Assembly: GCA_947473475.1 (NCBI GenBank)
Contig: CANJBZ010000039.1
Span: 1-36,795 of the forward strand
Direction of reading: 5' to 3'
Source of the DNA: Alphaproteobacteria bacterium
GTDB taxonomy: Bacteria; Pseudomonadota; Alphaproteobacteria; Micropepsales; Micropepsaceae
Length of the DNA: 36,795 nucleotides
Numbering within the stretch: position 1 is the stretch's first letter; each line of letters begins with the position of its first letter. The notes beneath the pieces were generated by a model that did not search any database, was not told where the DNA came from, and saw nothing but the letters and a program-made list of their open reading frames with translations. The position numbers and the translations under genes are program-made. Of the stretch, positions 2,577-36,036 are shown piece by piece.

Positions 2577-2969
2577 ATGGCCAAGCTTCGCCACATTGCG
2601 TTGATCGTTACCGATCCCGAAGCCTCCGCAAAATTCTATGAACAGGCCTTCGATCTGAAGGTTGTCGGGCGCGCCCGGCGCGGGATTTACATGTCTGACG
2701 GCACCATCAACATGGCTCTTCTGAAGGTTGAGGGCGACGAGAAGCCGGGCGTCTATCATTTTGGCGCCTGGGTGGACGACCTTGAGGCGGGCGAAAAAAA
2801 GGTGGCTGACGCGGGCGGGCGCTATCTCGCCGGGCGTCCGTCTTCGCCCAATTCCTTCTATGAGTGCAAATATCGCGATCCCGACGGCATCGTCTTCGAC
2901 ATTACGCACAACGGCTGGGTCGGTGCGGTGAAAGAGGTCGTGCCGGCCAAAGAAGAAGCCGGCGCTTAA
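2577..2969 (+). CDS. VOC family protein (glyoxalase/extradiol-dioxygenase fold)
   Basis: The 130-residue protein is one vicinal-oxygen-chelate module pair: LRHIALIVTDPEASAKFYEQ at the N-terminus, a second beta-alpha-beta unit from about residue 58, and the closing strand after YRDPDGIVFDIT. Likely metal ligands are His6, His61 and an acidic residue in FDIT, where many relatives have Glu. ATG at 2577 is chosen over an upstream GTG (2568) because AAGGAG at 2562-2567 stands nine bases before it. It is the first gene of an operon with a FAD hydroxylase and RidA. A role as isomerase, lyase or dioxygenase on the hydroxylated product is likely. The single-module size argues against a classical two-domain extradiol dioxygenase. 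Confidence 0.82.
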   Translation: MAKLRHIALIVTDPEASAKFYEQAFDLKVVGRARRGIYMSDGTINMALLKVEGDEKPGVYHFGAWVDDLEAGEKKVADAGGRYLAGRPSSPNSFYECKYRDPDGIVFDITHNGWVGAVKEVVPAKEEAGA

Positions 2970-2991: not shown

Positions 2992-4212
2992 ATGGATCGA
3001 TCTTCCGATCGCGTGCTGATTATTGGCGCCGGCCCCGTGGGGCTTTGCCTCGCGCTGAAGCTGGCCAAAGAGGGCGTGCCCAGCACCGTCCTCGAGCAGC
3101 TTCGCGATGACAATTTTCTGGATCAAGTGCCGCGCGCGGGAACAAACCACCCCGCGACGCTGGAAATGTACGACGACATCGGCCTGTACAACCGGCTGGA
3201 GCCGCGCGGCATCATCGCGCCGCTGTTTCACTATTGGGACCGCGCGAAAGCCGAACGCATCGCCGAGTTCGACCATGCCGTCCTGAAAGACGACACGCGC
3301 TTTCCCTTCGCGCTGCAATGCGAGCGCATCAAGATCGTGGAAGAGGCCCTCGCCATGGCGAAGGACAATCCGCTGATCGTGGTGCGGATGGGCATGACAT
3401 TCACTGGATTTACCCAGGATGCGGAGTCCGTAACCGCCTTTGCCGATAACGAAACGGGCGAAACGGAAGCGTTCAAGGGCCGGTACATCGTCAGCGGCGA
3501 AGGCGCCCGCAGCATCGTGCGCAAGGAATGCGGCATCGAGTTCGAAGGGTTTACCTACCCCGACCGCACCCTGAACATTGAAGTGGCCTACGACTTCAAG
3601 AAGCACGGCTATGCCGACCGCAATTACATTTCCGATCCCGATGAATGGTCGAACCTGTTCCATTGGAAAGGGCCGCCGGAACGCTGGCGCGTGCATTTCC
3701 CAACGCAGGAAGATGAAGACCCCGATGCGCTGATGGCGCCGGAAGCGATGCAGAAGCGGTTGCAGGGATTTCTGCCGACAGGCGCGCCGTTCAACATCGT
3801 CGGATGTAATCTGTACACGGTGCATCAGCGTGTGGCGGAAAAATTCCGTTCCGGACGCGCGATCCTGGCCGGCGACTCCGCCCATGTGAACAGCCCTATC
3901 GGCGGCATGGGATTGAACAGCGGCGTCCACGATGCCTTCAATCTGGCGGTGCGTCTTGGCCGCATCTGGCGCAAAGAAGGCGATGGCTCGCTCCTGGACC
4001 AATACGACCGTCAGCGCCGCCACATCGCCGTGCAGCACACCCAGTTGCAGACCATCCGCAACAAGAAGCTGCTGGCCGAGAAAGACCCGGCCGTCCGCCA
4101 GAAAGATCACGACGAGCTGCGGCGGCAATCGGAAGACCCGAATCTCGCACGCGAATTCCTGCTGCGTACCTCGCTCATCAACAGCGTGCGCGAAGCCGCG
4201 CAAATTCCGTAA
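2992..4212 (+). CDS. FAD-dependent aromatic hydroxylase (PHBH/TfdB-type class A flavoprotein monooxygenase)
   Basis: The 406-residue protein has the N-terminal dinucleotide fold VLIIGAGPVGLCLALKLAKE (GAGPVG at residues 12-17) and the second FAD motif GRAILAGDSAHVNSPIGGMG (GDSAH 294-298). The intermediate DG motif reads GEGARSIVR (about 169-177), with Glu where most relatives have Asp. The family hydroxylates aromatic acids or phenols using NAD(P)H and O2 in the cytoplasm. The C-terminal thioredoxin-like domain of the phenol-hydroxylase subgroup is absent. ATG at 2992 is preferred to TTG at 2983 because it begins just before the first beta strand. It lies 22 bases after the VOC gene and nine bases before RidA, so the three form one operon. 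Confidence 0.9.
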   Translation: MDRSSDRVLIIGAGPVGLCLALKLAKEGVPSTVLEQLRDDNFLDQVPRAGTNHPATLEMYDDIGLYNRLEPRGIIAPLFHYWDRAKAERIAEFDHAVLKDDTRFPFALQCERIKIVEEALAMAKDNPLIVVRMGMTFTGFTQDAESVTAFADNETGETEAFKGRYIVSGEGARSIVRKECGIEFEGFTYPDRTLNIEVAYDFKKHGYADRNYISDPDEWSNLFHWKGPPERWRVHFPTQEDEDPDALMAPEAMQKRLQGFLPTGAPFNIVGCNLYTVHQRVAEKFRSGRAILAGDSAHVNSPIGGMGLNSGVHDAFNLAVRLGRIWRKEGDGSLLDQYDRQRRHIAVQHTQLQTIRNKKLLAEKDPAVRQKDHDELRRQSEDPNLAREFLLRTSLINSVREAAQIP

Positions 4213-4221
4213 AGGATCACC

Positions 4222-4605
4222 ATGGCCGACATCGAACGCATCTTGACGCCGGACGCGCCAAAGCCCGCCGGTCACTATTCCCAAGCCGTCTGTCACGGCG
4301 ATCTGGTGTTCGTATCGGGCCAGCTTCCGGTAACGCTCGAAGGCAAGATCATCGCGGACGCGAGTTTCGAGGAGCAGGCGCGGTTGGCGCTTGCCAACCT
4401 CCTGGCCATCGTAAAGGCGGCGGGGAGCAGCCCCGAACGCGTCCTGAAAGTGACGGTCTTTCTCGCGGGCGTGGAATATTGGCCCAAGTTCAACGCGATC
4501 TACGCCGAAGCGTTCGGCGACGCGCGCCCGGCGCGTTCCGTCGTCCCCGTCCCCGCCCTGCATTATGGGTCCCTGGTCGAGGTGGAGGCCATCGCCGCGC
4601 GATAG
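4222..4605 (+). CDS. RidA family (YjgF/YER057c/UK114) enamine/imine deaminase-like protein
   Basis: This 127-residue single-domain protein has the typical RidA size and the family landmarks GDLVFVSGQLP (about 26-36), ANLLAIVKAAGSS (58-70) and PARSVVPVPAL (103-113). Arg105 and Glu120 fall at the positions of the active-site residues of E. coli RidA. Members speed hydrolysis of 2-aminoacrylate-type enamines/imines. Members embedded in catabolic operons often deaminate or isomerise a ring-cleavage intermediate. AAAGGA stands a few bases before the ATG. The position directly behind the FAD hydroxylase suggests a pathway step that yields an enamine, imine or unstable enol, possibly from an N-containing aromatic. 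Confidence 0.9.
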   Translation: MADIERILTPDAPKPAGHYSQAVCHGDLVFVSGQLPVTLEGKIIADASFEEQARLALANLLAIVKAAGSSPERVLKVTVFLAGVEYWPKFNAIYAEAFGDARPARSVVPVPALHYGSLVEVEAIAAR

Positions 4606-4611
4606 AGATTT

Positions 4612-4790
4612 CCTCCCCCGTGGTTACGGGGGAGTGGGACCGCGAAGCGGTGGAGGGGGCGGCCACCGCTCAGGACTTCACAGCTTCGCGCTCCCTTGTT
4701 TGAACCAAATCGAGCGCGTGGCAGCCCCCTCCACCGGCTACGCCGGTCCCCCTCCCCCGAACCGCTTCGCTATTCGGGGGAGGATCAACG
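4612..4790. repeat. C-rich hairpin repeat, copy 2 (compound)
   Basis: The 245-bp gap between RidA and the citryl-CoA lyase-like gene is mostly repeat. It contains CTCCCCCG / CGGGGGAG (4613-4634), a small hairpin around CCGCGAAGCGG (about 4640-4650), a block CCCCCTCCACCGGCTACGCC (about 4714-4733), and a final C-run/G-run pair around CTCCCCCGAACC and GGGGGAGG (about 4750-4790). The two halves are roughly inverted copies about 60 bases apart, so a long folded structure is possible. No coding sequence is seen in the gap. Confidence 0.7.
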
Positions 4791-4850: not shown

Positions 4851-5705
4851 ATGACCGAACGTGCGGAAGGCCTATCGCTGGAGGCGGTCACCGATTGGTG
4901 GGAAACGGCGATAACGGACATCGCGCCCGGATCGATCCGCATGCGCGGCTATGCGATCGAGGACTTAATCGGCACTATCAGCTTCCCGGCCATGATCTGG
5001 CTGATGCTGCGGGGTGAATTGCCCACCAAGCGCCAAGCGGATTTGCTAGGGGCCGTTCTTGTCGCCGGCGTCGATCACGGCCCGCAAGCCCCCTCCATCG
5101 CCATCGCGCGCATGGCCATGAGCTGCGGCCTGGGCCTGAACGGCGCCATGGCGAGCGCTGTGAATTCCCTGGGCGATGTCCATGGCGGCGCGGGGCAGCA
5201 GTGCATGGAGCTACTGGCCGATATCGGCAAACGTGAAACAGAGACGGGAAATCTGGCGCAGGCCGTAACGGAAGGGCTGGAAGCCTTCCGCGCTGAAAAC
5301 GGCCGCTTCATTCCGGGCTTCGGGCACCGCTTCCACGCCGTCGATCCGCGCGCGGCGCGTCTTTCCGAGCTTATCCGTTCGGCCGCCCGCGATGGCGTTC
5401 TGGATGGGCGCTATCTCGCCATCGGCGAAGCGGTGCAGATGCAACTCGCGAAAGGAAAGACCGCCGGGCCGCCAATGAATGTCGATGGCATTACCGCCGT
5501 GCTGTTGCTGGGCCTCGGCTTTCCGGCGCCTTTGGGACGCGGAATTTTCATCCTGTCGCGCAGCGTCGGCATTTGCGCCCACGCATTCGAGCAATCGCAA
5601 ACGGGCGAACGCATCAAAGGCCCCACACCGCCGCAATTCGGCTTCCATTACACCGGCGTCGGCCCGCGCACGCTGCCGGACGACGCGAAAGACCCCGCGC
5701 AATGA
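4851..5705 (+). CDS. Citrate synthase-fold protein, citryl-CoA lyase-like
   Basis: The 284-residue protein is a short member of the citrate synthase superfamily; full-length citrate synthases have about 370-430 residues. The catalytic triad can be placed: His111 in DVHGGAGQ, His159 in GFGHRFH and Asp212 in MNVDGITAVL. Stand-alone small members are usually citryl-CoA lyases or related enzymes that cleave a citryl-type CoA thioester to acetyl-CoA and a 2-oxoacid. It is followed with a 4-bp ATGA overlap by a CaiB-type CoA transferase, and then with another overlap by a D-2-hydroxyacid dehydrogenase. This suggests CoA activation, retro-Claisen cleavage and 2-oxoacid reduction. Condensation in the other direction is also possible. 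Confidence 0.85.
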   Translation: MTERAEGLSLEAVTDWWETAITDIAPGSIRMRGYAIEDLIGTISFPAMIWLMLRGELPTKRQADLLGAVLVAGVDHGPQAPSIAIARMAMSCGLGLNGAMASAVNSLGDVHGGAGQQCMELLADIGKRETETGNLAQAVTEGLEAFRAENGRFIPGFGHRFHAVDPRAARLSELIRSAARDGVLDGRYLAIGEAVQMQLAKGKTAGPPMNVDGITAVLLLGLGFPAPLGRGIFILSRSVGICAHAFEQSQTGERIKGPTPPQFGFHYTGVGPRTLPDDAKDPAQ

Positions 5706-6856
5706 CGGGCGCCGCAACAAAGCCGCTGCCGCTTGCGGGCATCCGCGTTCTCGAATTCGGTCATACGATCCTTGGCCCCTGCTGCGGCATGGTGCTGGCC
5801 GATTTCGGCGCAGAAGTGATCAAGATCGAGCCGCCGGGCGGCGAGCGCACGCGCCGTCTGAAAGGCTTTGGCGCGGGCTATTTCGCGTTTTTCAACCGCA
5901 ACAAGAAAAGCGTCACGCTGGATTACAAAACGCCCGAGGGACTGGCGACGGCACGGGCGCTGATTCAAACCGCCGACGTGGTGATCGAGAACATGGCCCC
6001 CGACGCGCTGACTCGCGCAGGGCTGGGGCCGGACGACGCGCGCGCTCTGAACCCGCAACTGATCTATTGCTCGCTCAAAGGGTTCCTCGGCGGGCCTTAC
6101 GCCAATCGCGCCGCACTGGACGAAGTCGTGCAGATGATGAGCGGTCTTGCCTATATGACGGGACCGCCGGGCATGCCGCTTCGCGCCGGCACATCGATTT
6201 CCGACATGCTGGGCGGCATTTTCGGCGCGATGGGAATTTTGGTTGCCTTGCGCGAACGCGACCGCACGCATGAGGGAGCGATCGTGGAAGCTGCGCTGTT
6301 CGAAACGGCGGCGTTTCTGATGGGCCAGTTTATGGCCGCCAGCGCGTTGACCGGTAAGCCTGTTCCTCCCATGCCGGCGCGTGTTTCCGCCTGGGCGGTT
6401 TATGAATTGTTTGAAACAGCCGATGCCAAACGCGTGTTTATCGGCATCACCAGCGACCATCATTGGGCCAGCTTCTGCCGCGAATTCGGCCGCGCCGATC
6501 TGTTCGCCGAACCAGCCTTCACGACAAACGAAATGCGCGTCGAAGGCCGCAACCGGCTAATCCCCGAATTGATTGCGTTGTTCAAATTCCTGCCGGCCGC
6601 CGACATTGAGCGCCGCTGCGTTGCCGCCGGCTTGCCATTCGCCAATGTCGGACGTCCCGAAGATTTGTTCGACGATCCGCACCTCAACAGCAATGGCAGC
6701 CTCGCGGCGACGGTGATTCCCGGCGACATTCACACCAAGCTTCCCACCCTGCCGATCCGCATCGACGGCGATGCTTTCGCGTTGCGCAGCGATCCACCGA
6801 AGGCTGGCGAACACACTGACGAGATTCTCAGCGCCTTGAAGCGAGACCAAGCATGA
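5702..6856 (+). CDS. CaiB/BaiF family (class III) CoA transferase
   Basis: The 384-residue protein has the family opening LPLAGIRVLEFGHTILGPCC with GADVIKIE-like AEVIKIEPPGGERTR (38-51), the VVIENMAPDAL block (93-103), and RAGTSISDMLGG, where Asp168 matches the catalytic Asp that forms the aspartyl-CoA thioester in formyl-CoA transferase. These cytosolic enzymes move CoA between carboxylic acids. The ATG at 5702 overlaps the stop of the citryl-CoA lyase-like gene by four bases, so translation is probably coupled; an in-frame upstream extension would run through the previous gene and is rejected. It likely activates the acid cleaved by its neighbour. Confidence 0.92.
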   Translation: MTGAATKPLPLAGIRVLEFGHTILGPCCGMVLADFGAEVIKIEPPGGERTRRLKGFGAGYFAFFNRNKKSVTLDYKTPEGLATARALIQTADVVIENMAPDALTRAGLGPDDARALNPQLIYCSLKGFLGGPYANRAALDEVVQMMSGLAYMTGPPGMPLRAGTSISDMLGGIFGAMGILVALRERDRTHEGAIVEAALFETAAFLMGQFMAASALTGKPVPPMPARVSAWAVYELFETADAKRVFIGITSDHHWASFCREFGRADLFAEPAFTTNEMRVEGRNRLIPELIALFKFLPAADIERRCVAAGLPFANVGRPEDLFDDPHLNSNGSLAATVIPGDIHTKLPTLPIRIDGDAFALRSDPPKAGEHTDEILSALKRDQA

Positions 6857-7809
6857 CCCCCATCAAAGTCGGCATCCTCGACGATTTCCAGAACGTCACA
6901 CGCACCTTTGCCGATTGGAGCCGCCTGCCGCCGCATGTTTCCGTGACGGTCTTCAACCAGCATTTCGAAGACGAGGAATTGGTCACCCGCATCGCGCCCT
7001 TCGACGTGCTGGTGATCACGCGCGAACGCACGCCTTTCCCGCGCGCACTGATCGAACGCTTGCCCAACCTGAAGCTTCTCGTCACCACCGGCTGGCGCAA
7101 TCTCGGCATCGACGCGGCGGCATGCCGCGAGCGCGGCATTCTCGTGTGTGGGACGGAAGCGGGAAGCTCGCCAACAGCCGAATTGGCGTGGGGACTCATC
7201 ATCGCCGCAGCGCGCCACATCGCCGCCGAAGATCACGCCCTGCGCTCCGGACGCTGGCAATCGACTGTCGGCGTGTCGCTGCAAGGCAAGACGCTGGGCA
7301 TTTTGGGCTTGGGCCGCCTGGGTTCACAAATGGCGCGCGTCGGCGATGCGTTCGGCATGAAGGTGATCGCCTGGAGCCAAAATCTCACCGCCGAACGCGC
7401 CCGCGATGGCGGGGCCCAGCGCGTGGACAAAGACGAGTTATTCGCGCAATCGGACGTGCTGAGCATCCACCTGATCCTCAGCGACCGCACCCACGGCCTT
7501 GTCGGTGCGCCGGAAATCGCCCTGATGAAGCGCTCAGCTATCCTGGTGAATACCTCGCGTGCGCCCATTGTGGACGAGGCGGCACTCATCGCAGCCCTGC
7601 ATGAGGGGCGCATCGCCGGGGCGGGTATCGACGTTTACTCCAAAGAGCCACTGCCAGCGGACGCGCCGATCCTGAAAGCACCCAATACCGTGCTGACGCC
7701 CCACCTCGGCTACGTCACCCGGGAGACATACGAGATTTACTTCCCGCAGGCGCTTGAGGACGTCGAAGCCTGGCTAAATGGGTCACCAATCCGGATAATT
7801 GGAGATTGA
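6853..7809 (+). CDS. D-2-hydroxyacid dehydrogenase family protein (NAD(P)-dependent)
   Basis: The 318-residue protein has the two-domain architecture of the D-isomer-specific 2-hydroxyacid dehydrogenases. The NAD-binding motif is LGILGLGRLGSQMA (GLGRLG 152-157), and the catalytic residues are Arg236 in NTSRAPIVDE, Glu265 in YSKEPLP and His284 in LTPHLGY. The family reduces 2-oxoacids to D-2-hydroxyacids, or the reverse, in the cytoplasm. The ATG overlaps the CoA transferase stop by four bases. In this operon it could reduce the 2-oxoacid released by C-C cleavage or oxidise a hydroxyacid feeding the pathway. The substrate is unknown. Confidence 0.92.
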   Translation: MTPIKVGILDDFQNVTRTFADWSRLPPHVSVTVFNQHFEDEELVTRIAPFDVLVITRERTPFPRALIERLPNLKLLVTTGWRNLGIDAAACRERGILVCGTEAGSSPTAELAWGLIIAAARHIAAEDHALRSGRWQSTVGVSLQGKTLGILGLGRLGSQMARVGDAFGMKVIAWSQNLTAERARDGGAQRVDKDELFAQSDVLSIHLILSDRTHGLVGAPEIALMKRSAILVNTSRAPIVDEAALIAALHEGRIAGAGIDVYSKEPLPADAPILKAPNTVLTPHLGYVTRETYEIYFPQALEDVEAWLNGSPIRIIGD

Positions 7810-8604: not shown

Positions 8605-8657
8605 CTTCCCCCGCGGTTGCGGGGGAAGTGGCGCGCGAAGCGCGACGAAGGGGGCGC
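8605..8657. repeat. C-rich hairpin repeat, copy 3
   Basis: A perfect 10-bp stem CTTCCCCCGC / GCGGGGGAAG with a GGTT loop (8605-8628) begins five bases after the DUF6134 stop. It is followed by a GCGCGCGAAGCGCG hairpin and a G-rich tail. It resembles the first half of the compound repeat at 4612-4651 (C-run, GTGGTTAC/GCGGTTGC loop, G-run, then a CGCGAAGCG hairpin). Confidence 0.75.
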
Positions 8658-8732
8658 GGCGAGCGTCCCTGTTCCCTTCCGCTCCGCCCTTCCCTAGATT
8701 GCGCGCCATACGAATCCCAACACGAGAGCGTC

Positions 8733-9686
8733 ATGGCGAAGCCCCTTATCATTGCCTTGGAAGAACATTACGGCGACCCCGAAGTCGAAGCGACCTTCAC
8801 CGGTCCGGACGCGATGAAGCCGCCGCGCATCACCGAACGCATGCCGCTCGGCGCACTTCGCTTGAAGGAGATGGACGACGCCGGCATCGACATGCAGGTG
8901 CTGTCGCACACCAATCCTGGGGTACAGAAGCTCGATCCCGAAACGTCCGTCCGCATGGCAACGGCTGCCAATGACCGCTTGTATGAGACGGTGCGCGCGA
9001 ACCCCACACGCTTTGCCGCATTCGCAACCCTGCCGACGCCGGACCCGAAAGCCGCCGCCGACGAACTGGAACGCACGGTCACAAAGTATGGCTTCAAGGG
9101 CGCCATGGTGCATGGCCTGACGGGCGGCAAATTCTTCGACGACAAGATGTTCTGGCCGGTGTTCGAACGGGCGCAGGCGCTCGACGTGCCGCTATACATG
9201 CATCCGGCAATTCCGCATCCCGCCGTGATCGAGGCGTATTACAAGGATTACGCCAAGGACTTCCCGATGTTCATTCGCGCCGGCTGGGGCTTCACGGCCG
9301 AGACGGCGACGCAAGGGATTCGCTTGGTCCTAAGCGGCGTGCTCGACGCCTATCCCAAGACCAAGATCATCATGGGGCATTTGGGCGAAGGCCTGCCGTT
9401 CCTGCTGTGGCGCATCAGCCATTCGATGAAGCGCGAAGGCAAGGACACAAAAGTCTTCCGCGATTATTTCTGCGAGCACTTCTACGTCACGACGAGCGGC
9501 TTCTTCTCCAATCCGGCGCTGCTCTGCACCGTGATGGAAATGGGCATCGATCGCGTGATGTTCTCGGTCGATTACCCGTTCGTCGACAATTCCCTCGGCA
9601 CAAAATGGGTCGATAACATCCCGCTGTGCGACGAAGACAAAGTGAAACTGCTCAGCGGTAATGCCAAACGGCTTCTGAAAATGTAA
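8733..9686 (+). CDS. Amidohydrolase-2 family protein, probable metal-dependent decarboxylase (resorcylate/ACMSD type)
   Basis: This 317-residue TIM-barrel protein has the complete metal site of the gamma-resorcylate/2,3-dihydroxybenzoate decarboxylase branch: Glu10 and His12 in ALEEHYG, His157 in LYMHPAIP, His216 in IIMGHLGEG and Asp280 in MFSVDYPF. Such enzymes remove CO2 from hydroxybenzoates, or hydrolyse related compounds, without cofactors other than a divalent metal. The ATG at 8733 starts directly before the ALEEH strand; an in-frame extension upstream would read through the repeat. It stands alone between a hairpin repeat and a foreign-looking gene. It resembles a whole version of the fragment at 131-577. 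Confidence 0.9.
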   Translation: MAKPLIIALEEHYGDPEVEATFTGPDAMKPPRITERMPLGALRLKEMDDAGIDMQVLSHTNPGVQKLDPETSVRMATAANDRLYETVRANPTRFAAFATLPTPDPKAAADELERTVTKYGFKGAMVHGLTGGKFFDDKMFWPVFERAQALDVPLYMHPAIPHPAVIEAYYKDYAKDFPMFIRAGWGFTAETATQGIRLVLSGVLDAYPKTKIIMGHLGEGLPFLLWRISHSMKREGKDTKVFRDYFCEHFYVTTSGFFSNPALLCTVMEMGIDRVMFSVDYPFVDNSLGTKWVDNIPLCDEDKVKLLSGNAKRLLKM

Positions 9687-11086: not shown

Positions 11087-13423
11087 CTACTGTGCGTGCG
11101 CTCTTCGCTCGCTAGAATTGTTGGATTGGAATGAGCCTTCGGTGGGTCCGCTAGATAACTCAGTCTGAATCATCTTCCAGACACGTGCGGGTGATAGCGG
11201 TAGTGCGTTGGGCTGCACGTTGAAATCGCATAATGCCGCGGCGACGGCGTTGGCGATAACGCCGCCGACGGGGATGATGCCACCTTCGCCCGCGCCCTTG
11301 GCGCCGAGCGGGTTGTGCGGCGCCGGGTAGGTTTCTGTGGCGTGGACGTGGATGTGAGGGAACTCGCAGGCAGTTGGAAGCAGATAGTCCGCCAGCGATG
11401 TGGTCAGCAGTTGGCCGCTGGCGTCATAGACCAGATGCTCCATCAGCGTGCCGCCCAAGCCCTGCATGATCGCGCCGAGCGTTTGCCCGTGCAGCGTCTT
11501 GGGGTTGACGATGCGGCCCACATCTTCGACGCCGACATAATCGAGCACCTCGATAGCGCCAGTTTCGACATCGACCGCGACATGGGCGGCGTGCGCGCCG
11601 TAGCTGTAGGTGCGCTTGGTGCTGCTGAAGCTGCCGTCGGCTGACAATCCCGCAAATGCCGAAAACGGAAGGGATTGTTTGCCCGGTCCCACAACACTGT
11701 CTTCGGTGATCGAGACGGCGGAAACATCGCAACCGAGCCGCTCCGCCCCGGCAGCGCGCAATGCCTGCCGCAATTTCTGCGCCACGACGACAATGGCCGA
11801 ACCGCCCATAACCGTCGAACGCGAGCTGTAGGAGCCGAAGCCTTCGCTCACATAATTGGTCGAGCCGTGGAAAACCCCAGCTATGCGCGAAAGCGGAATC
11901 TCCAGTGCGTCGGCGGCAATTTGCGCGAAGGCGGTTTCTATTCCCTGCCCCACGCCTGACGATCCGACGAAAACGCCGATACGGCCATCGGCTTGGATTT
12001 CCAAACGCGCGTGCTCACGCGGGCCCGATGCGCCGCCTTCGAAATAACAGCCCACGGCGAGACCGTGATAACGGCCATCGACTTTCTTTCCGTTCAGCGC
12101 CTGTTTTTCGTTCCAGCCAATTTCAGCCAAGCACTGGTCGAGTGTCGCCGCGTAATCGCCGGAATCCGTTTCGCTCTCGATTTTCAGGGGCATCACGGTT
12201 GCCAGCGGATAGGGCATTTCGTCCGGTGCAATCAGGTTCAACCGGCGAAACGCCACGCGGTCCATTCCCAATTCTTCCGCGACGATGTCGAACAGCCGCT
12301 CGCGAAAGAAATCCGCCTCATAGCGCCCCGGTCCGCGATAGGTGCCGGCGGGCGTCTTGTTGCTGAGCAGCAGCGATACGCCCAGATCGATATGCGGTAC
12401 GCGATAGGGCCCCGACAGAACCGATATGATGTTGCGCGCCGGCGTCACGCCCACGGTGCGGATATAGGCGCCAATGTCCGCCCACACCTCACCGCGCAGC
12501 GCCACGATGCGCCCGTCAGCAGCGACGGCAATCTCGATTTCGCATTCGGCTTCGCGCGCATGATTGGTCGTAAGCAGATTCTCGCGACGGTCCTCGATCC
12601 ATTTGACGGGGCGGCCCAAATGCCGTGCCGCGAAGGGAACCAAAAAATCTTCCGGATAAAATTCGCCGCGTGCACCAAAGGCGCCGCCGACATCGTTCTC
12701 GATCAGCGTTACGCTCTGCTCCGGCAGGCCCATAAATTTCGCGAGAATGCGCCGGTTGGTAAACGGCACCTTGGCGGCTCCGGACAACGTCATGTGCCCG
12801 CGTGCGTCGTCCCATTGCGCGAGCAGACCGCGGCCTTCCATAGCAACCGCCGTATGACGGTGAACGCGGAACGATTCGCGCCGCGTGTAGCCCTTATGCG
12901 CCGCAAACGCCGCCGCGGCGTCGCCCTTCACCGCCGAGAGTTGCGCCGCGATGTTGCTGCCGGGTTCCTCGAACAGCAGCGCGCCGCCCGCCACGGCGGC
13001 AGCGCGATCCACCACGGCCGGCAATTCGTCGATGTCGAGATCGACGGCCGCCGCCGCGTCTTCCGCACGATCACGCGTATCGGCCACAATGAGCGCAACC
13101 GGTTCGCCCACATAGCGGACCTTTCCGTCTGCAATCACCGGCTGCTCGAACGGCGTCAGTTCCGGCATGGGTTCCTGCCGCATCGGAATGCGCGGCAGCG
13201 GACGCATATCGTCCGCCGTGTAAACGCCATGCACGCCAGGCATCGCGCGTGCTTCCGTCGCATCGATCCGCACAATCCGCCCATGCGCGACCGGGCTGCG
13301 CAGAATTACGGCATGCAGCAACCCTTCCGGATGCAGATCGCCGACATAGATTCCGCGCCCGGTGAGAAAGCGGGCATCTTCGAGACGCGGAATGCCCGCC
13401 CCGATATAGGCGTTGCGCGCCAT
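11087..13423 (-). CDS. Xanthine dehydrogenase family protein, molybdopterin-binding subunit (copy A)
   Basis: The 778-residue protein has the two large-subunit domains of molybdenum hydroxylases: an N-terminal a/b hammerhead (GIPRLEDARFLTGRGIYVGD onward) and a long Mo-cofactor-binding part with TPAGTYRGPGRYEADFFRER, SSGVGQGIETAFAQIAADAL and GAKGAGEGGIIPVGGVIANA. Glu713 in GEGG is the conserved catalytic base. The AYRCSFR signature of CO dehydrogenase is absent, so it more likely hydroxylates an N-heterocycle, aldehyde or aromatic acid. It begins immediately after the cupin stop (zero gap). The FAD and 2Fe-2S subunits that normally accompany it are not in the window, so it needs partners from elsewhere or from the paralog at 13979-16267. 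Confidence 0.92.
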   Translation of the reverse strand: MARNAYIGAGIPRLEDARFLTGRGIYVGDLHPEGLLHAVILRSPVAHGRIVRIDATEARAMPGVHGVYTADDMRPLPRIPMRQEPMPELTPFEQPVIADGKVRYVGEPVALIVADTRDRAEDAAAAVDLDIDELPAVVDRAAAVAGGALLFEEPGSNIAAQLSAVKGDAAAAFAAHKGYTRRESFRVHRHTAVAMEGRGLLAQWDDARGHMTLSGAAKVPFTNRRILAKFMGLPEQSVTLIENDVGGAFGARGEFYPEDFLVPFAARHLGRPVKWIEDRRENLLTTNHAREAECEIEIAVAADGRIVALRGEVWADIGAYIRTVGVTPARNIISVLSGPYRVPHIDLGVSLLLSNKTPAGTYRGPGRYEADFFRERLFDIVAEELGMDRVAFRRLNLIAPDEMPYPLATVMPLKIESETDSGDYAATLDQCLAEIGWNEKQALNGKKVDGRYHGLAVGCYFEGGASGPREHARLEIQADGRIGVFVGSSGVGQGIETAFAQIAADALEIPLSRIAGVFHGSTNYVSEGFGSYSSRSTVMGGSAIVVVAQKLRQALRAAGAERLGCDVSAVSITEDSVVGPGKQSLPFSAFAGLSADGSFSSTKRTYSYGAHAAHVAVDVETGAIEVLDYVGVEDVGRIVNPKTLHGQTLGAIMQGLGGTLMEHLVYDASGQLLTTSLADYLLPTACEFPHIHVHATETYPAPHNPLGAKGAGEGGIIPVGGVIANAVAAALCDFNVQPNALPLSPARVWKMIQTELSSGPTEGSFQSNNSSERRAHAQ

Positions 13424-13951
13424 CTACGATGTCAAATGCGCGTCGCGCCGCTGAAACAGCGATTCATCCGCATAGCCCATGGTTTCAGGCTGCGCCCGCC
13501 CCAACATCACCTGGAAATAGACGGGCTCCAGACTTTCATTTTGGTAGCCATGAATCACGCCGGGCGGACAGGAAACGCATTCCCACGGTCCCAGCGTGCG
13601 GCTTAGGCGGCGGCCGTCTTCGTCCTCGACAAAGACGGTCAGATAGCCGCGCAGGACGAAGAACACTTCCTCAACTTCATGCGTATGCGCGGCGTTACCC
13701 TGCCCCGGCGGCACGAACATGATCGACAGCGTAAACCCGCGCGCCGGGATCACATTGGGATCGCCGTGCTTGCCGGAGCCGCCCGCGCCGATGAAACGAT
13801 GTTGCGCGCGGCGAAAGCCGTCGATCTTGGCGTCCTCGAACGCTTCCCAATCGCCGCGCTTCTCGCTGAAGCGCCCCGTGTGGGTACGCAAAATTTCTTC
13901 CAGCGAAACGCCTTCCAATTCCTTGGGCTTGGGATGACGCGCAACAGACAT
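13424..13951 (-). CDS. Cupin-domain protein between two molybdenum-enzyme subunits
   Basis: This 175-residue protein has one cupin barrel. Motif 1 is GNAAHTHEVEEVFFVLRG with His89, His91, Glu95 and Gly102 in canonical spacing; motif 2 is CPPGVIHGYQN with His134. A divalent metal site is therefore expected. The first 75 residues (PKPKELEGVSLEEILRTH, then GDWEAFEDAKIDGF) precede the barrel and are not part of the minimal fold. The domain layout resembles small dioxygenases or ligand-binding cupins. It starts 27 bases after the upstream Mo-subunit gene and abuts the next one exactly, so all three are surely co-transcribed. A dioxygenase acting on the hydroxylated product, or a substrate sensor, are both possible. 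Confidence 0.85.
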   Translation of the reverse strand: MSVARHPKPKELEGVSLEEILRTHTGRFSEKRGDWEAFEDAKIDGFRRAQHRFIGAGGSGKHGDPNVIPARGFTLSIMFVPPGQGNAAHTHEVEEVFFVLRGYLTVFVEDEDGRRLSRTLGPWECVSCPPGVIHGYQNESLEPVYFQVMLGRAQPETMGYADESLFQRRDAHLTS

Positions 13952-13978
13952 GAGAAGACCTTTCTGTACCGAGCTATT

Positions 13979-16267
13979 TCATTCCGCCGCGTGCGCGTGC
14001 GCCGCGGCGTGGATCAACTGCCAAACATTCGACGGCGACAGCGGCAAATCATGCACGCTGACGCCAAGCGGTTTCAGCGCGGACGATACGGCGTTGGAAA
14101 TGACGCCGCCCACCGGAATAATGCCGCCTTCACCCGCGCCCTTCGCGCCCAGTGGATTGATCGGCGAAGGCTCCTCTTCCATCAGGAAGACGCGGATGTT
14201 GGGAAAGTCCGGCGCAGTCGGCATGAGGTAATCCGCGAATGTCGTGCTCAGCGGTTGACCGTTTGCGTCATATGCAAAGCGCTCCAGGAACGTGCCGCCC
14301 AATCCTTGCACGAGCGCACCCAGCACCTGTCCGCGCAATGTCGCGGGATTCATGATGCGGCCCACATCTTCCGTCGCGACGTAATCGAGAATCTCGATAT
14401 GGCCGGTGTTGGGATCGACCGCGACATGCGCGGCGTGCGCCCCATAGGAATAGGTGTGATGGTGATTGGCAAAGCTGCCTTCCGCCGACAGCCCCGCGAA
14501 ATCGCCGAGCTTCACAGACTTGCCACCGGGGCCTGTCACCTTGTCGTCGTCCAATGTGATCTCAGCCACCGAACAGCCGAAGCGCGCGGCCGCAGCATCG
14601 CGGATTTGCTCTCGCAATTTTTCCGCCGCCAGCAGCATGGCCGAGCCACCCATTACGACGGCGCGCGAATGATACGAACCATACCCCTCGTTCAGCAGCG
14701 TCGTGGAGCCATGCAAAATCCGCACGCGATCGAACGTGACTTCCAGCGCATCGGCGGCGATCTGCGCGAACACGGTTTCTAGCCCCTGCCCGATGGCCGA
14801 TGACCCCACATGAATCGTAATCGAGCCGTCCGGCTCGATTGTCATGCGCGCGTTTTCTTTGGGGCCTGCCGCGCCGCCTTCAATGAAGCAACCAACGGCA
14901 ATCCCGTGGTGACGCCCACCAATGAAGCGGCCGTCGATTTCGCTTTTCTTCTTCCAATCGAATTCCGTCAGACAGCGTTGCAGCGCGCTGGCATAATTGC
15001 CGCTGTCATATTCGGTATCCGCCTCAAAGGGCGTGATATGCGCGATGTGATAGGGCATCTCGCTTTTGGTCACGAGATTGCGGCGGCGAAACTCGACGCG
15101 GTCGAGTTTCAGATCGGCGCAGACCAGATCGAACATCCGCTCACGGAAGAAATCCGTCTCGTAACGCCCCGGCCCGCGATACGTGCCCGACGGCGTCTTG
15201 TTCGTGAACTGAACGTGCGATTCGAGATGAATGTTCGGAATACGATACGGCCCGGACATGAACTGCACGACATTGCGCGGAGCGACCAGGCCGTTGGTCC
15301 GGATGTAAGCGCCGACATCGCACCAGGCATTGCCGCGTAAGGCCAAAATCGTACCGTCTCGGGCGCAGGCGATCTCGATCTCGCAATCGGCATCGCGCGC
15401 GTGCTGCGTCGCCATCAGGTTTTCGCGGCGGTCTTCCGTCCATTTCACGGGACGCCCGGTGTGGCGCGCCGCGAAGGGAATGAGAAAGTCTTCAGGGTAA
15501 AATTCGCCACGCGCACCAAAGCCGCCACCGACATCGTTCTCGATCAGATCGACGGCTGATTCCGGCAAGCCCATTTTCTCCGCGAGCATACGACGGTTGA
15601 AAAATGCGACCTTCGCCGCACCATTGACGGTTAGCCTGCCCGCTTTGGCGTCCCATTCCGCCAGCAAGCCGCGTGGCTCCATGGGTACGGCGGCGTGGCG
15701 GTGAACGCGGAATTTTTCGCGCCGCGTATACGGGGCTGTGCGGAAGACAGCATCGGCATCGCCGAAAAACGCGGTGTATTTCACCGCCAGATTGCTGCCA
15801 TGTCCTTCGTGGACGAGCGCCTGATCGGCACAAGATTCCGCACGCGTGGTGACCGGCGTCAACGCTTCGATGTCCAAGCCGATGGCGGCGGCGGCATCCT
15901 CCGCACGGCCCGGACTGCTGGCCAGCACCACCGCAATCGGCTCGCCGACATAGCGAACCTTCTCATAAGCAAGCACCGGCTGATGAAACGGCACCAGCGA
16001 AGGCATCGGCTGCAGCCGGATGTTCACGGTCGGAAAGGGGCGCGGCAGATCGGCGGCGGTGATGATGCTGTGAACACCGGGGAGGCTCAGCGCCCGCGCG
16101 GTGTCGATGGCGAGAATACGCCCGTGCGCGACGGGACTGCGCAAAATGCAGGCGTAAAGCTGGCCCTCGCGCCTCACATCGTCGATGTACTGCCCGCGCC
16201 CGCGCACAAAGCGCAGGTCTTCCGTCCGTTTGATGGCGCTGCCAATAAGCCGATTGGTGGTTCTCAA
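13979..16267 (-). CDS. Xanthine dehydrogenase family protein, molybdopterin-binding subunit (copy B)
   Basis: The 762-residue paralog of the 11087-13423 product has the same landmarks: LIGSAIKRTEDLRFVRGRGQ at the N-terminus, TPSGTYRGPGRYETDFFRER, SSAIGQGLETVFAQIAADAL, and GAKGAGEGGIIPVGGVISNA with catalytic Glu713. The two proteins are clearly homologous along their whole length but well diverged, an old duplication. The start is TTG at 16267; no in-frame ATG or GTG is found within the upstream 79-base gap, and the predicted protein begins right where relatives do. GGAGGGG from the hairpin repeat 16268-16341 lies directly before the TTG and may serve as ribosome-binding site. The gene follows the decarboxylase-like gene 16347-17342 in one operon. 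Confidence 0.92.
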   Translation of the reverse strand: MRTTNRLIGSAIKRTEDLRFVRGRGQYIDDVRREGQLYACILRSPVAHGRILAIDTARALSLPGVHSIITAADLPRPFPTVNIRLQPMPSLVPFHQPVLAYEKVRYVGEPIAVVLASSPGRAEDAAAAIGLDIEALTPVTTRAESCADQALVHEGHGSNLAVKYTAFFGDADAVFRTAPYTRREKFRVHRHAAVPMEPRGLLAEWDAKAGRLTVNGAAKVAFFNRRMLAEKMGLPESAVDLIENDVGGGFGARGEFYPEDFLIPFAARHTGRPVKWTEDRRENLMATQHARDADCEIEIACARDGTILALRGNAWCDVGAYIRTNGLVAPRNVVQFMSGPYRIPNIHLESHVQFTNKTPSGTYRGPGRYETDFFRERMFDLVCADLKLDRVEFRRRNLVTKSEMPYHIAHITPFEADTEYDSGNYASALQRCLTEFDWKKKSEIDGRFIGGRHHGIAVGCFIEGGAAGPKENARMTIEPDGSITIHVGSSAIGQGLETVFAQIAADALEVTFDRVRILHGSTTLLNEGYGSYHSRAVVMGGSAMLLAAEKLREQIRDAAAARFGCSVAEITLDDDKVTGPGGKSVKLGDFAGLSAEGSFANHHHTYSYGAHAAHVAVDPNTGHIEILDYVATEDVGRIMNPATLRGQVLGALVQGLGGTFLERFAYDANGQPLSTTFADYLMPTAPDFPNIRVFLMEEEPSPINPLGAKGAGEGGIIPVGGVISNAVSSALKPLGVSVHDLPLSPSNVWQLIHAAAHAHAAE

Positions 16268-21705: not shown

Positions 21706-22092
21706 GTGCTCAACAGATATTCCGTTACCGCGGCGCTTTTGCTCGCCACTGCTGTCCCGGCCTTCGCGCACCATTCGGACGCGATGTTCTCCAACGACAA
21801 AGAGGTCGTCCTGAACGGCACGGTGCGGGAATTCCAATACACCAACCCGCATTCCTGGATTCAGCTGATGGTCGCGGGCAATGCCGGCGCGCAGCCGGTC
21901 GAATGGAGCATCGAAACCGCAGCCCCGATTGTGCTGCTTCGCGCCGGCATCAAGCCCGCCGCGCTGAAGCCCGGCGACAAGATCACCGTGCGCGCACGTC
22001 CTCTGAAAAACGGCGGTCCTGGCGGCAGCCTGATCGACATCAAGAAGGACGACGGCACCACGCTCAGCCTGCGCGGCCCCGGCGGCAATTAG
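21706..22092 (+). CDS. Secreted DUF6152 family protein
   Basis: The 128-residue protein has a signal peptide (VTAALLLATAVPAFA, cut before HHSDAMF) and a mature domain of about 105 residues with the DUF6152 pattern HHSDAMFSNDKEVVLNGTVR, YTNPHSWIQLMV and LKPGDKITVRARPLKNG. The HH right after the cleavage site and the NPHSW motif are typical; these His residues may bind metal. The fold is probably a small OB-like barrel in the periplasm. The start is GTG at 21706 with GGAGGAAACC just before it. The gene follows TctC by 39 bases. DUF6152 genes often sit beside WEGD-motif proteins like the next gene. The function is unknown. Confidence 0.82.
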   Translation: MLNRYSVTAALLLATAVPAFAHHSDAMFSNDKEVVLNGTVREFQYTNPHSWIQLMVAGNAGAQPVEWSIETAAPIVLLRAGIKPAALKPGDKITVRARPLKNGGPGGSLIDIKKDDGTTLSLRGPGGN

Positions 22093-22095
22093 ATT

Positions 22096-22193
22096 CCCTC
22101 TCCCCCCTGGGGGAGAGGGTTAGGGTGAGGGGGTGATCTATCCTCCGCCACCGCCCCCCTCACCCCGGCCCTCTCCCCGAAAAGGGGAGAGGG
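22096..22193. repeat. C-rich hairpin repeat, copy 6 (double hairpin)
   Basis: Two hairpins, CCCTCTCCCCC / GGGGGAGAGGG (22096-22119) and CCCTCTCCCC / GGGGAGAGGG with a GAAAA-type loop (22169-22193), flank a further pair GTGAGGGGG / CCCCCTCAC. The whole 98 bases could fold into one long structure. It fills the gap between the DUF6152 and WEGD-motif genes and ends 17 bases before the latter's ATG, near its ribosome-binding site. The sequence differs in detail from copies 1, 5 and 8, so it may belong to a subfamily. Confidence 0.75.
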
Positions 22194-22210
22194 AGATTGC
22201 GGACATTCCC

Positions 22211-23092
22211 ATGACGAACAGCGATTTTCCCAACCGCCGTAACATCGGAGCGGGCCTTATTGCCGCCAGCGCCTTTGCGGCGACGCGGCCCGCGCAAGCG
22301 GCAGCGCCAACGCATGACGACGTGGTGAAGAAATTCGCCGCGCTGCCGGATTGGACGGGCGTGTGGACCGGCACCGGCACGTTGTTCGATCAGAAAGACG
22401 GCGCGCGTTCGCCCAACGGCAATCCCAACGCGCGCGATTTTCCGCCCTACAAACCGGAATGGGAAGCGGCTTACGTCAAATTCCTCGACGAGGTGGTGAA
22501 GACGGACAAGTTTTCCGATCCGCTTTCCGTCGGCTATCCCGGCGGCATGGTCCGCATGATGTCGCCCGCGCGCGGGCTGCAATTCGTGCTGCGCCCGGAG
22601 CAAATCTGGATCGTCTATGAGCGGCCCGATGTGCGCTACATCTACACGGACGGACGCTCGTTCCCGCCGGCCGATGAGCTGTGGCCAACCTTCGAAGGCT
22701 ATTCCATCGGCCATTGGGAAGGCGACACACTGGTTGTCGAAACGCGCAGCATCCGCGGCGGCATCCCCATCGACCGCACCGGCGCCTGCCTGTCGGACGA
22801 AGCCCGCGTCATGGAGCGCATCCGCAAGACGGACGCGCGCACGCTGCAAGCCGATATCACCATCGACGACCCGGTTGCGTTCACCGCACCATGGAAAGTG
22901 ACGCGGCGCTACTTCAAGCGGGCCGAAGAATTTCCCCGCATGGAAAACGTCTCCAGCCTGGAGAACAACCGCAACCCCGTCGTCAACGGCGAAACGACAA
23001 TCCGGCTGGCCAACGATTCCGACGCCTCCTCTCCGTACCCGGACGATCTCCGCGCCGTCGCCGTGCCGAAATTTCCATTTCCGAAGAAGTAA
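22211..23092 (+). CDS. Exported protein of unknown function, WEGD-motif family, paralog 1
   Basis: The 293-residue protein starts with an RR-containing export signal (NRRNIGAGLIAASAFAATRP, cleavage near AQA-AA at 28-32), suggesting Tat or Sec export. The mature part contains DWTGVWTGTG (47-56), a WIVYERPDVRYIYTDGR strand pair (133-149) and the marker GHWEGDTLVVETRS (167-180), then DDPVAFTAPWKVTRRY near 225. The same plan (W-x-G, Y/H-W-EGD-LV-T, DP-FT-PW) recurs at 25629-26543 and 31714-32613. The pattern suggests a lipocalin-like beta barrel; the function is unknown. Its ATG follows the hairpin repeat by 17 bases, and it ends a plus-strand group with TctC and DUF6152. Confidence 0.75.
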   Translation: MTNSDFPNRRNIGAGLIAASAFAATRPAQAAAPTHDDVVKKFAALPDWTGVWTGTGTLFDQKDGARSPNGNPNARDFPPYKPEWEAAYVKFLDEVVKTDKFSDPLSVGYPGGMVRMMSPARGLQFVLRPEQIWIVYERPDVRYIYTDGRSFPPADELWPTFEGYSIGHWEGDTLVVETRSIRGGIPIDRTGACLSDEARVMERIRKTDARTLQADITIDDPVAFTAPWKVTRRYFKRAEEFPRMENVSSLENNRNPVVNGETTIRLANDSDASSPYPDDLRAVAVPKFPFPKK

Positions 23093-34866: not shown

Positions 34867-36036
34867 ATGAAGCAATGTGACGTTCTTGTCCTGGGTTTGG
34901 GAGCCGCCGGCAGCGCGGCCACCTATCAGCTCGCCAAACGCGGGGTAAAAGTGGTCGGCCTGGACAGCTTTGCCCCGCCGCATGACCAGGGCTCCTCGCA
35001 CGGGGATTCGCGGATTACGCGGCTAGCCATCGGCGAAGGCGTCGCCTATTCGCCGCTGGCCATGCGCTCGCACCAGATCTGGCGCGACATGGAACGGGAA
35101 ACGGGCGCCGATTTGATGCGGCAAACCGGCGGGCTGATCATGACCAGCCCGGGCAAGACCTCCGTGCTGCCTGTCGATAATTTCTTTTCCACCACAGTGG
35201 CAGCCGCGAAGGTGCATGGCATCGCCCACGAAATCCTGGACGCGCGGGAGATTGCGCGCCGGTTTCCGGCATTCAACGTGCGCGAGGATGAGGTCGCCTA
35301 TTACGAGCAGGAAGCCGGATACCTCAAACCTGAAAACTGCCTGCGAACACAGCTGGCGCTGGCGGAAAAATATGGCGCGGAGTTACGGACCGGAGAAAAG
35401 GTGCTGGGCTTCGAACCCTCGGCGCATGGCGTTCGGGTGACGACGGAACACCAGGTTTACGAAGCCGGTAAACTTATCGCCGCGGCGGGCGCCTGGATGC
35501 CGCAACTGATCGGCGCGCGCTATGCGAAGCTGTTCACCGTGCGGCGGCAAGTGCTGTTCTGGTTTGCGGTGAACGGCCCGATCGAGCCGTTCCTGCCCGA
35601 TAACTTCCCTATCTACATCTGGGAGCTGCAGGGGCCGGAACGCGGCATCTACGGCTTTCCCAGCAGCGGCAATGCCGGCGATGGCGTGAAAGTCGCGACG
35701 CACGGCTTCGGGCCGGTGACAACGCCGGACACGATAGACCGCACTGTGAACGCTGACGAAGCGGCCGAAATGCACGCTGAATACGTTGCGCCTTATCTGC
35801 CCACGCTTGACCGGCGCTGCATCAAGGCCGTCGTCTGCATGTACACAGTCCTGCCGGGCGACCGCTTCTTGATCGATGTTCTGCCCGAGTCGGACCGGAT
35901 CATCGTCGCCTCGCCCTGTTCCGGGCACGGCTTCAAACATTCCGCCGCCATCGGCGAGGCACTCGCGGAGATGGTAACCGCAGGCAAAACGCGCCTGGAC
36001 CTGTCGCCTTTCAGATTTTCTGAGTTCGGAATTTAG
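34867..36036 (+). CDS. Monomeric sarcosine oxidase/N-methyltryptophan oxidase-like FAD enzyme
   Basis: The 389-residue protein has the DAO-fold dinucleotide motif VLVLGLGAAGSAATYQLAKR (GLGAAG 10-15), the sarcosine-oxidase hallmark GSSHGDSRITR (42-52), and CMYTVLPGDRFLID with Cys324 at the position of the cysteine that covalently binds FAD in MSOX and MTOX. SPCSGHGFKHSAAIGE follows near the C-terminus. It should oxidise a secondary amine or N-methyl amino acid to an imine plus H2O2 in the cytoplasm. ATG at 34867 is chosen because it starts right before the first beta strand. Its start is 59 bases from that of the TauD-type gene, so the two may be co-regulated. Confidence 0.9.
   Translation: MKQCDVLVLGLGAAGSAATYQLAKRGVKVVGLDSFAPPHDQGSSHGDSRITRLAIGEGVAYSPLAMRSHQIWRDMERETGADLMRQTGGLIMTSPGKTSVLPVDNFFSTTVAAAKVHGIAHEILDAREIARRFPAFNVREDEVAYYEQEAGYLKPENCLRTQLALAEKYGAELRTGEKVLGFEPSAHGVRVTTEHQVYEAGKLIAAAGAWMPQLIGARYAKLFTVRRQVLFWFAVNGPIEPFLPDNFPIYIWELQGPERGIYGFPSSGNAGDGVKVATHGFGPVTTPDTIDRTVNADEAAEMHAEYVAPYLPTLDRRCIKAVVCMYTVLPGDRFLIDVLPESDRIIVASPCSGHGFKHSAAIGEALAEMVTAGKTRLDLSPFRFSEFGI

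Follow-up and report, generated by a model that had tools for sequence, protein, structure and literature searches.

Examination of the window, meaning the whole 36,795-nucleotide stretch analysed here (contig CANJBZ010000039.1 of assembly GCA_947473475.1, from an alphaproteobacterium of the family Micropepsaceae), reveals three overlapping genes for a citryl-coenzyme A lyase family protein, a class III coenzyme A (CoA) transferase, and a D-2-hydroxyacid dehydrogenase (Table 1), the first two of which recur together over a wide taxonomic range. Judged from sequence, this lyase-transferase pair probably forms a two-step, CoA-dependent acid-cleaving module, with the dehydrogenase as a third step in the window and one congener. 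The window spans contig C39 completely; the assembly comprises 66 contigs and 3.87 Mb. A preliminary description drawn from the DNA letters had proposed that all three genes act as a unit that splits a citrate-like acid into acetyl-CoA and a 2-oxo acid, the latter then being reduced.

Conservation of the lyase-transferase pair and its exchangeable partners

The conservation of the locus was investigated by scanning GTDB genomes for the lyase, which gave 458 relatives and 80 retained loci biased towards close relatives of the query, to which 29 plasmid records were added, and by an even draw of 397 Pseudomonadota genomes that is free of this bias. Genes in unannotated loci came from a codon-model caller validated on one annotated plasmid region (L096), neighbouring genes were labelled by BLAST against annotated representatives, and several genomes of the genus are incomplete bins. 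In 71 of 96 non-redundant loci, a class III transferase directly adjoined the lyase in the same orientation, and a SauS-like CoA-acylating aldehyde dehydrogenase stood in its place in 12 others; one or the other lay within 7 kb of the lyase in 86 loci, and both in a single one. After thinning to below 75% lyase identity, the transferase was adjacent in 23/38 loci, whereas 1000 draws of random genes from these loci gave a mean of 2.8 and a maximum of 9, and the adjacency is not a matter of chance. The even draw contained the lyase in 27/397 genomes including the window's own (26/396, about 7%, without it), with an adjacent transferase in 18 of the 27 neighbourhoods fetched from non-window genomes. 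Lyase loci were found in Cupriavidus, Azospirillum, Pandoraea, Mesorhizobium, Aromatoleum, Thauera, Pectobacterium, Streptomyces, Nocardia, and a Chloroflexota bin, the family also occurring in Actinomycetota. The conserved unit over this range is the lyase-transferase pair and not the trio.

The dehydrogenase is a local addition to this widespread pair. The preliminary description had looked to a conserved order of the three families, and of this the lyase-transferase order proved wide while the complete order recurred in one congener only (L017, with 69, 76, and 68% identity for lyase, transferase, and dehydrogenase), where the trio is preceded by a PrpF-family gene. Elsewhere the trio was not found, and broad sampling (the 96 loci, and 0/27 in the even draw) speaks against it as a conserved unit. 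In L165, an alpha/beta-hydrolase gene separates the transferase from a dehydrogenase of 35-39% identity, after which come RraA-like, AllD-like, and LeuCD genes, and this looks like an independent recruitment. Paralogues of the dehydrogenase at about 50% identity occur elsewhere in the genus. Genes at 21784-23092 and 34867-36036 of the window (two of unknown function and one amine-oxidase-like) also stand right after the trio in L017, at 58-78% identity, and the island shared with that congener thus exceeds the trio.

Relatives of the window transferase were present in 48 other genomes among 385 sampled Alphaproteobacteria. Of 40 neighbourhoods from this transferase clade, 20 carried a gene of the 3-hydroxy-3-methylglutaryl (HMG)-CoA lyase fold (PF00682), two a citryl-CoA-type lyase (L163, L165), and none both; LeuCD genes adjoined several. 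The transferase tree places mostly lyase-paired relatives closest to the window protein and those paired with HMG-CoA-lyase-fold proteins next, and the Cupriavidus-type lyase-paired transferases lie far away; the lyases themselves were placed in a quick tree. A single transferase clade is thus paired with two lyase folds, and a single lyase family is found with two transferase clades as well as with an unrelated thioester maker. This exchange, of thioester makers on one side and of unrelated carbon-carbon lyases on the other, is the main evidence for a mechanism in which thioester formation precedes carbon-carbon cleavage. Follow-up genes likewise vary by locus, from aldehyde dehydrogenases and thiamine diphosphate (ThDP) enzymes to TcuA-like flavoproteins and iron-containing alcohol dehydrogenases, and the dehydrogenases and ThDP enzymes among them fit a 2-oxo acid or aldehyde product. 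The common logic is likely that the lyase yields such a product and each lineage handles it differently. In L220 and L104, the lyase stands beside an iron-containing alcohol dehydrogenase and an aldehyde dehydrogenase. A separate recurrent cluster (L170, L172, L174, L178, and L179) combines a same-clade transferase, an HMG-CoA-lyase-fold gene, and LeuCD-type hydratase genes, which suggests a pathway whose substrate is a branched unsaturated or hydroxy dicarboxylic acid.

Enzyme families and catalytic residues

Both its sequence and its predicted fold place the lyase clearly in the citryl-CoA lyase family. It scored 410 bits against the NCBIfam citryl-CoA lyase model NF004864 (cut-off 261) and at most 88 bits against citrate-synthase models, whose cut-offs are at least 330 and, for the best-scoring one, 550. 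These scores, together with the 284-residue length, rule out a citrate or 2-methylcitrate synthase, the identity which the preliminary description had named as one case that would overturn it. The closest solved relative is the Hydrogenobacter citryl-CoA lyase 6hxp. An AlphaFold model (mean predicted local distance difference test 84.5, predicted template-modelling score 0.82) returned 6hxp as the top Foldseek match (E 9.6e-16), followed by the citryl-CoA lyase modules of bacterial and human ATP-citrate lyase, with template-modelling scores of about 0.7; the root-mean-square deviation was large for several of the top matches, which means that some portions of the model differ in placement. Across 103 aligned lyases including 6hxp, His76, His111, His159, Arg160, Arg167, Asp212, and Arg237 are invariant, a set which, from the alignment and the known residues of citrate synthase, we take to be equivalent to the catalytic and 2-oxoacid-binding residues of that enzyme.

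The transferase has as its nearest solved relatives 4ed9 and the human succinate--hydroxymethylglutarate CoA-transferase (SUGCT, 9br6), the nearest named one, whose name refers to a 3-hydroxy-3-substituted glutarate, and its catalytic Asp168 is invariant across 119 transferases. Both accompanying enzymes fell below the named substrate equivalogs, the transferase for succinate--glutarate, mesaconate, and formyl/oxalate types (best 226.6 bits against a cut-off of 750, and 182.7 against 442) and the dehydrogenase with a best of 221 bits against 454. In the dehydrogenase, the second strand of the nucleotide fold ends without an acidic residue (WSQNL), which hints at NADPH and hence at the reducing direction. 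The preliminary assignments stood up well here: all three families were confirmed (NF004864; PF02515, over the full length; PF00389/PF02826), the residues His111/His159/Asp212 of the lyase, Asp168 of the transferase, and Arg236/Glu265/His284 of the dehydrogenase are all present at the numbers given, and the DNA letters bear out an ATGA overlap at both joints. For the transferase, the ATG at 5702 gives the four-base overlap, the listed 427-residue open reading frame beginning at an upstream TTG.

Proposed reaction and competing explanations

We infer the direction of the reaction, its substrate class, and the dehydrogenase step as follows. The acceptor would be a tertiary 3-hydroxy acid with a carboxylate on the hydroxyl carbon, R-C(OH)(COOH)-CH2-COOH. 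With succinyl-CoA, acetyl-CoA, or a similar compound as donor, the class III transferase would load CoA onto the CH2-COO(-) arm of this acid by way of an acyl-enzyme at Asp168, and the citryl-CoA-type lyase would then break the bond beside the hydroxyl carbon to release acetyl-CoA and a 2-oxo acid (R-CO-COOH). The dehydrogenase, translationally coupled here and in one congener, probably reduces the 2-oxo acid, a step for which other lineages would use other enzymes; for the window gene, the simplest interpretation is that this reduction would give a D-2-hydroxy acid.

The substrate class is suggested by the neighbours of the pair in relatives. PrpF and aconitase genes precede it in G005, whose operon appears from gene fragments to be split over two contigs, and in Streptomyces iranensis; an aconitase gene also lies nearby in L019, L009, L072, and L102, PrpF in L017 and L019, a TcuA-like gene in Azospirillum, L072, and L102, and LeuCD in L165. 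Flanking hydratase and isomerase genes of this kind make or rearrange citrate-like acids, and the aconitase, PrpF, TcuA-like, or quinate genes beside relatives point to such acids as substrates. The pair moves between feeder pathways, and the acid cannot be named from context. The acid cleavage of the preliminary description survives as CoA activation followed by a citryl-type lyase, with the pair conserved and its partners swapping. Its claim of an unrecorded route holds for the pathway and substrate and fails for the families, given that NCBI has an equivalog model for the lyase and that CoA transfer with subsequent thioester cleavage is established chemistry.

In nine sister-clade loci (L023, L040, L060, L078, L080, L093, L094, L238, and L245), the lyase occurs with a ThDP enzyme, shikimate dehydrogenase, dehydroquinate dehydratase, and QuiC-like genes, and the same loci carry the transferase or the acylating aldehyde dehydrogenase. 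Because quinate contains the citrate skeleton at C1, this cluster could encode a non-aromatic breakdown of quinate whose last step is citryl-type cleavage. More broadly, and only tentatively, a citryl-CoA-type lyase with an exchangeable thioester maker may constitute a general, undescribed cleavage of citrate-like skeletons to acetyl-CoA and a 2-oxo acid that serves several pathways, including quinate/shikimate breakdown with ThDP-dependent ring opening in the sister clade.

Several observations weigh against the cleavage module as proposed. Position 221 is Gly in the window lyase but Glu in 102 of the 103 aligned sequences, and the substrate of the window lyase could differ for this reason. 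A window-type dehydrogenase is missing from every one of the 27 evenly drawn loci of the phylum, and in the congeners G002 and G003, whose genomes are both incomplete, the lyase has no transferase beside it and no close transferase occurs elsewhere in the genome. The reaction could also be a condensation, in which the dehydrogenase oxidises a D-2-hydroxy acid, the lyase condenses the resulting 2-oxo acid with acetyl-CoA, and CoA is regained from the product by the transferase. The citryl-CoA lyase reaction is reversible in principle, the fold is common to citrate synthase, and the gene order would make sense in reverse; we nevertheless consider this direction unlikely, as the relatives' neighbours are catabolic (tricarboxylate transporters, TRAP and ABC importers, and acetate kinase with phosphate acetyltransferase) and the lyase, besides scoring far under the synthase cut-offs, is without the N-terminal part of citrate synthase. 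That the genes merely overlap without a joint pathway is highly improbable: the lack of conservation of the dehydrogenase beside the pair would fit, whereas the ATGA coupling at both joints, a pair adjacency far above random, and the same trio order in L017 speak against it.

Other alternatives concern the substrate of the cleavage module. Plain citrate would make the pair a two-protein, ATP-free citrate lyase, in keeping with the family name and with the setting of the pair in Ruegeria, where tripartite tricarboxylate-transporter genes precede it and the genes for acetate kinase and phosphate acetyltransferase lie next to it. Aerobes with a full tricarboxylic acid cycle, however, are not known to need a citrate lyase, and neighbours that differ by clade (aconitase, PrpF, TcuA-like, quinate-type) suggest several non-standard acids, which leaves citrate itself decidedly unlikely. 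A substrate-specific version of the proposed cleavage, which we judge unlikely, has the trio cleave an aromatic ring-fission product, e.g., 4-carboxy-4-hydroxy-2-oxoadipate, made by the monooxygenase, VOC, RidA, and decarboxylase-type amidohydrolase proteins encoded nearby. The monooxygenase is similar to PnpA and HspB and the amidohydrolase to gamma-resorcylate and 5-carboxyvanillate decarboxylases, the L165 cluster contains an RraA/4-carboxy-4-hydroxy-2-oxoadipate-aldolase-like gene, and the congener L018 keeps the order RidA-lyase-DUF6134-amidohydrolase together with an MFS transporter. Yet the L018 arrangement is without transferase and dehydrogenase, no ring-cleaving dioxygenase was recognised in the cluster, and the pair in L017 and G005 sits with PrpF or aconitase instead.

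Genomic surroundings of the locus and comparison with known systems

The features in and around the trio are collected in Table 1. Scans for promoters and terminators in the vicinity of the trio yielded no signal above chance, and a survey of open reading frames and Pfam domains found no CitE-type lyase or acyl-carrier protein genes in its neighbourhood. The order lyase-DUF6134-amidohydrolase is kept in L016. A 4-oxalomesaconate hydratase role was considered for the amidohydrolase and ruled out (36 bits, against 217 to gamma-resorcylate/carboxyvanillate decarboxylases). The repeat between the RidA and lyase genes has about 104 partial matches in the genome, and a stretch of similar look lies at about 8605-8690. 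Further along, at 11087-16267 on the minus strand, two xanthine-dehydrogenase-type molybdenum subunits (about 760-780 residues) flank a 175-residue gene, and a homologue (71%) directly follows the amidohydrolase in L018. The first 135 bases of the window recur at 99-100% identity at 15 other sites in the genome, mostly contig ends; a repeated element thus ends the contig and appears to truncate the amidohydrolase gene at 131-577 (stretch 1-577).

Table 1. Features of the window in and near the three-gene locus
Feature	Position	Strand	Basis
Single-domain VOC/glyoxalase protein	2577..2969	+	PF00903
Flavin adenine dinucleotide-dependent aromatic monooxygenase, nearest solved relatives PnpA and HspB	3013..4212	+	PF01494
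RidA-family protein; directly upstream of lyase in L018 too	4222..4605	+	PF01042, synteny
Dispersed intergenic inverted-repeat (palindromic) element, between RidA and lyase genes	4606..4790	.	
Citryl-CoA-lyase family protein, 284 aa	4851..5705	+	NF004864, 6hxp, predicted model, invariant columns
Class III (CaiB/Frc) CoA-transferase, 384 aa, catalytic Asp168	5702..6856	+	PF02515 E 1.8e-107
D-2-hydroxyacid dehydrogenase, 318 aa, Arg236/Glu265/His284	6853..7809	+	PF00389/PF02826
DUF6134 protein; after lyase in congeners L016, L018	7935..8600	+	PF19630
Amidohydro_2 protein, gamma-resorcylate / 5-carboxyvanillate decarboxylase type	8733..9686	+	PF04909

In the open-access literature, we found no description of a class III transferase working with a citryl-CoA-type lyase, of citryl-CoA in connection with quinate or with aromatics, or of a pathway for this lyase family outside carbon fixation. 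If the proposed module is true, the annotation "citryl-CoA lyase" can mislead surveys of carbon fixation, and several catabolic routes for polycarboxylic acids would be opened up by a simple two-enzyme assay.

The closest known systems are the Hydrogenobacter citryl-CoA synthetase/citryl-CoA lyase (6hxp) and the citryl-CoA lyase module of ATP-citrate lyase, which have the same lyase family, fold, catalytic residues, and cleavage of a citryl-type CoA thioester. In these, CoA is attached with ATP, whereas here this part falls to a CoA-transferase or, in the sister clades, to an acylating aldehyde dehydrogenase, and the window lyase family further differs from 6hxp in His162 (Tyr in Hydrogenobacter) and in an R-x-K-G-P motif at 254-258 (Arg254-Ile-Lys-Gly-Pro). 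For malate, citramalate, and HMG, such a succession of CoA transfer and cleavage by a lyase is already known. Class III transferases with malyl/citramalyl-CoA lyases, in the 3-hydroxypropionate bi-cycle and the itaconate pathway, likewise transfer CoA to a hydroxy acid and then release acetyl-CoA and a 2-oxo acid, but those lyases have the CitE TIM-barrel fold and the window lyase a citrate-synthase-type fold. One class III transferase, Mct, is described in PMC9813914. SUGCT with HMG-CoA lyase offers another parallel, since SUGCT is the nearest named solved transferase and HMG-CoA-lyase-fold proteins adjoin this transferase clade in many Alphaproteobacteria; the lyase fold is nonetheless unrelated to that of the window, and the acid has a methyl group where a carboxylate is proposed here. 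Citrate lyase CitDEF follows the same overall logic of transferase and lyase, but with a prosthetic group bound to an acyl-carrier protein, an unrelated transferase, and a CitE lyase, none of which occurs here. Taken together, the pair is most likely a variant of the known acid cleavage by CoA transfer and CoA lyase that is itself new, built from enzyme families that are each known.

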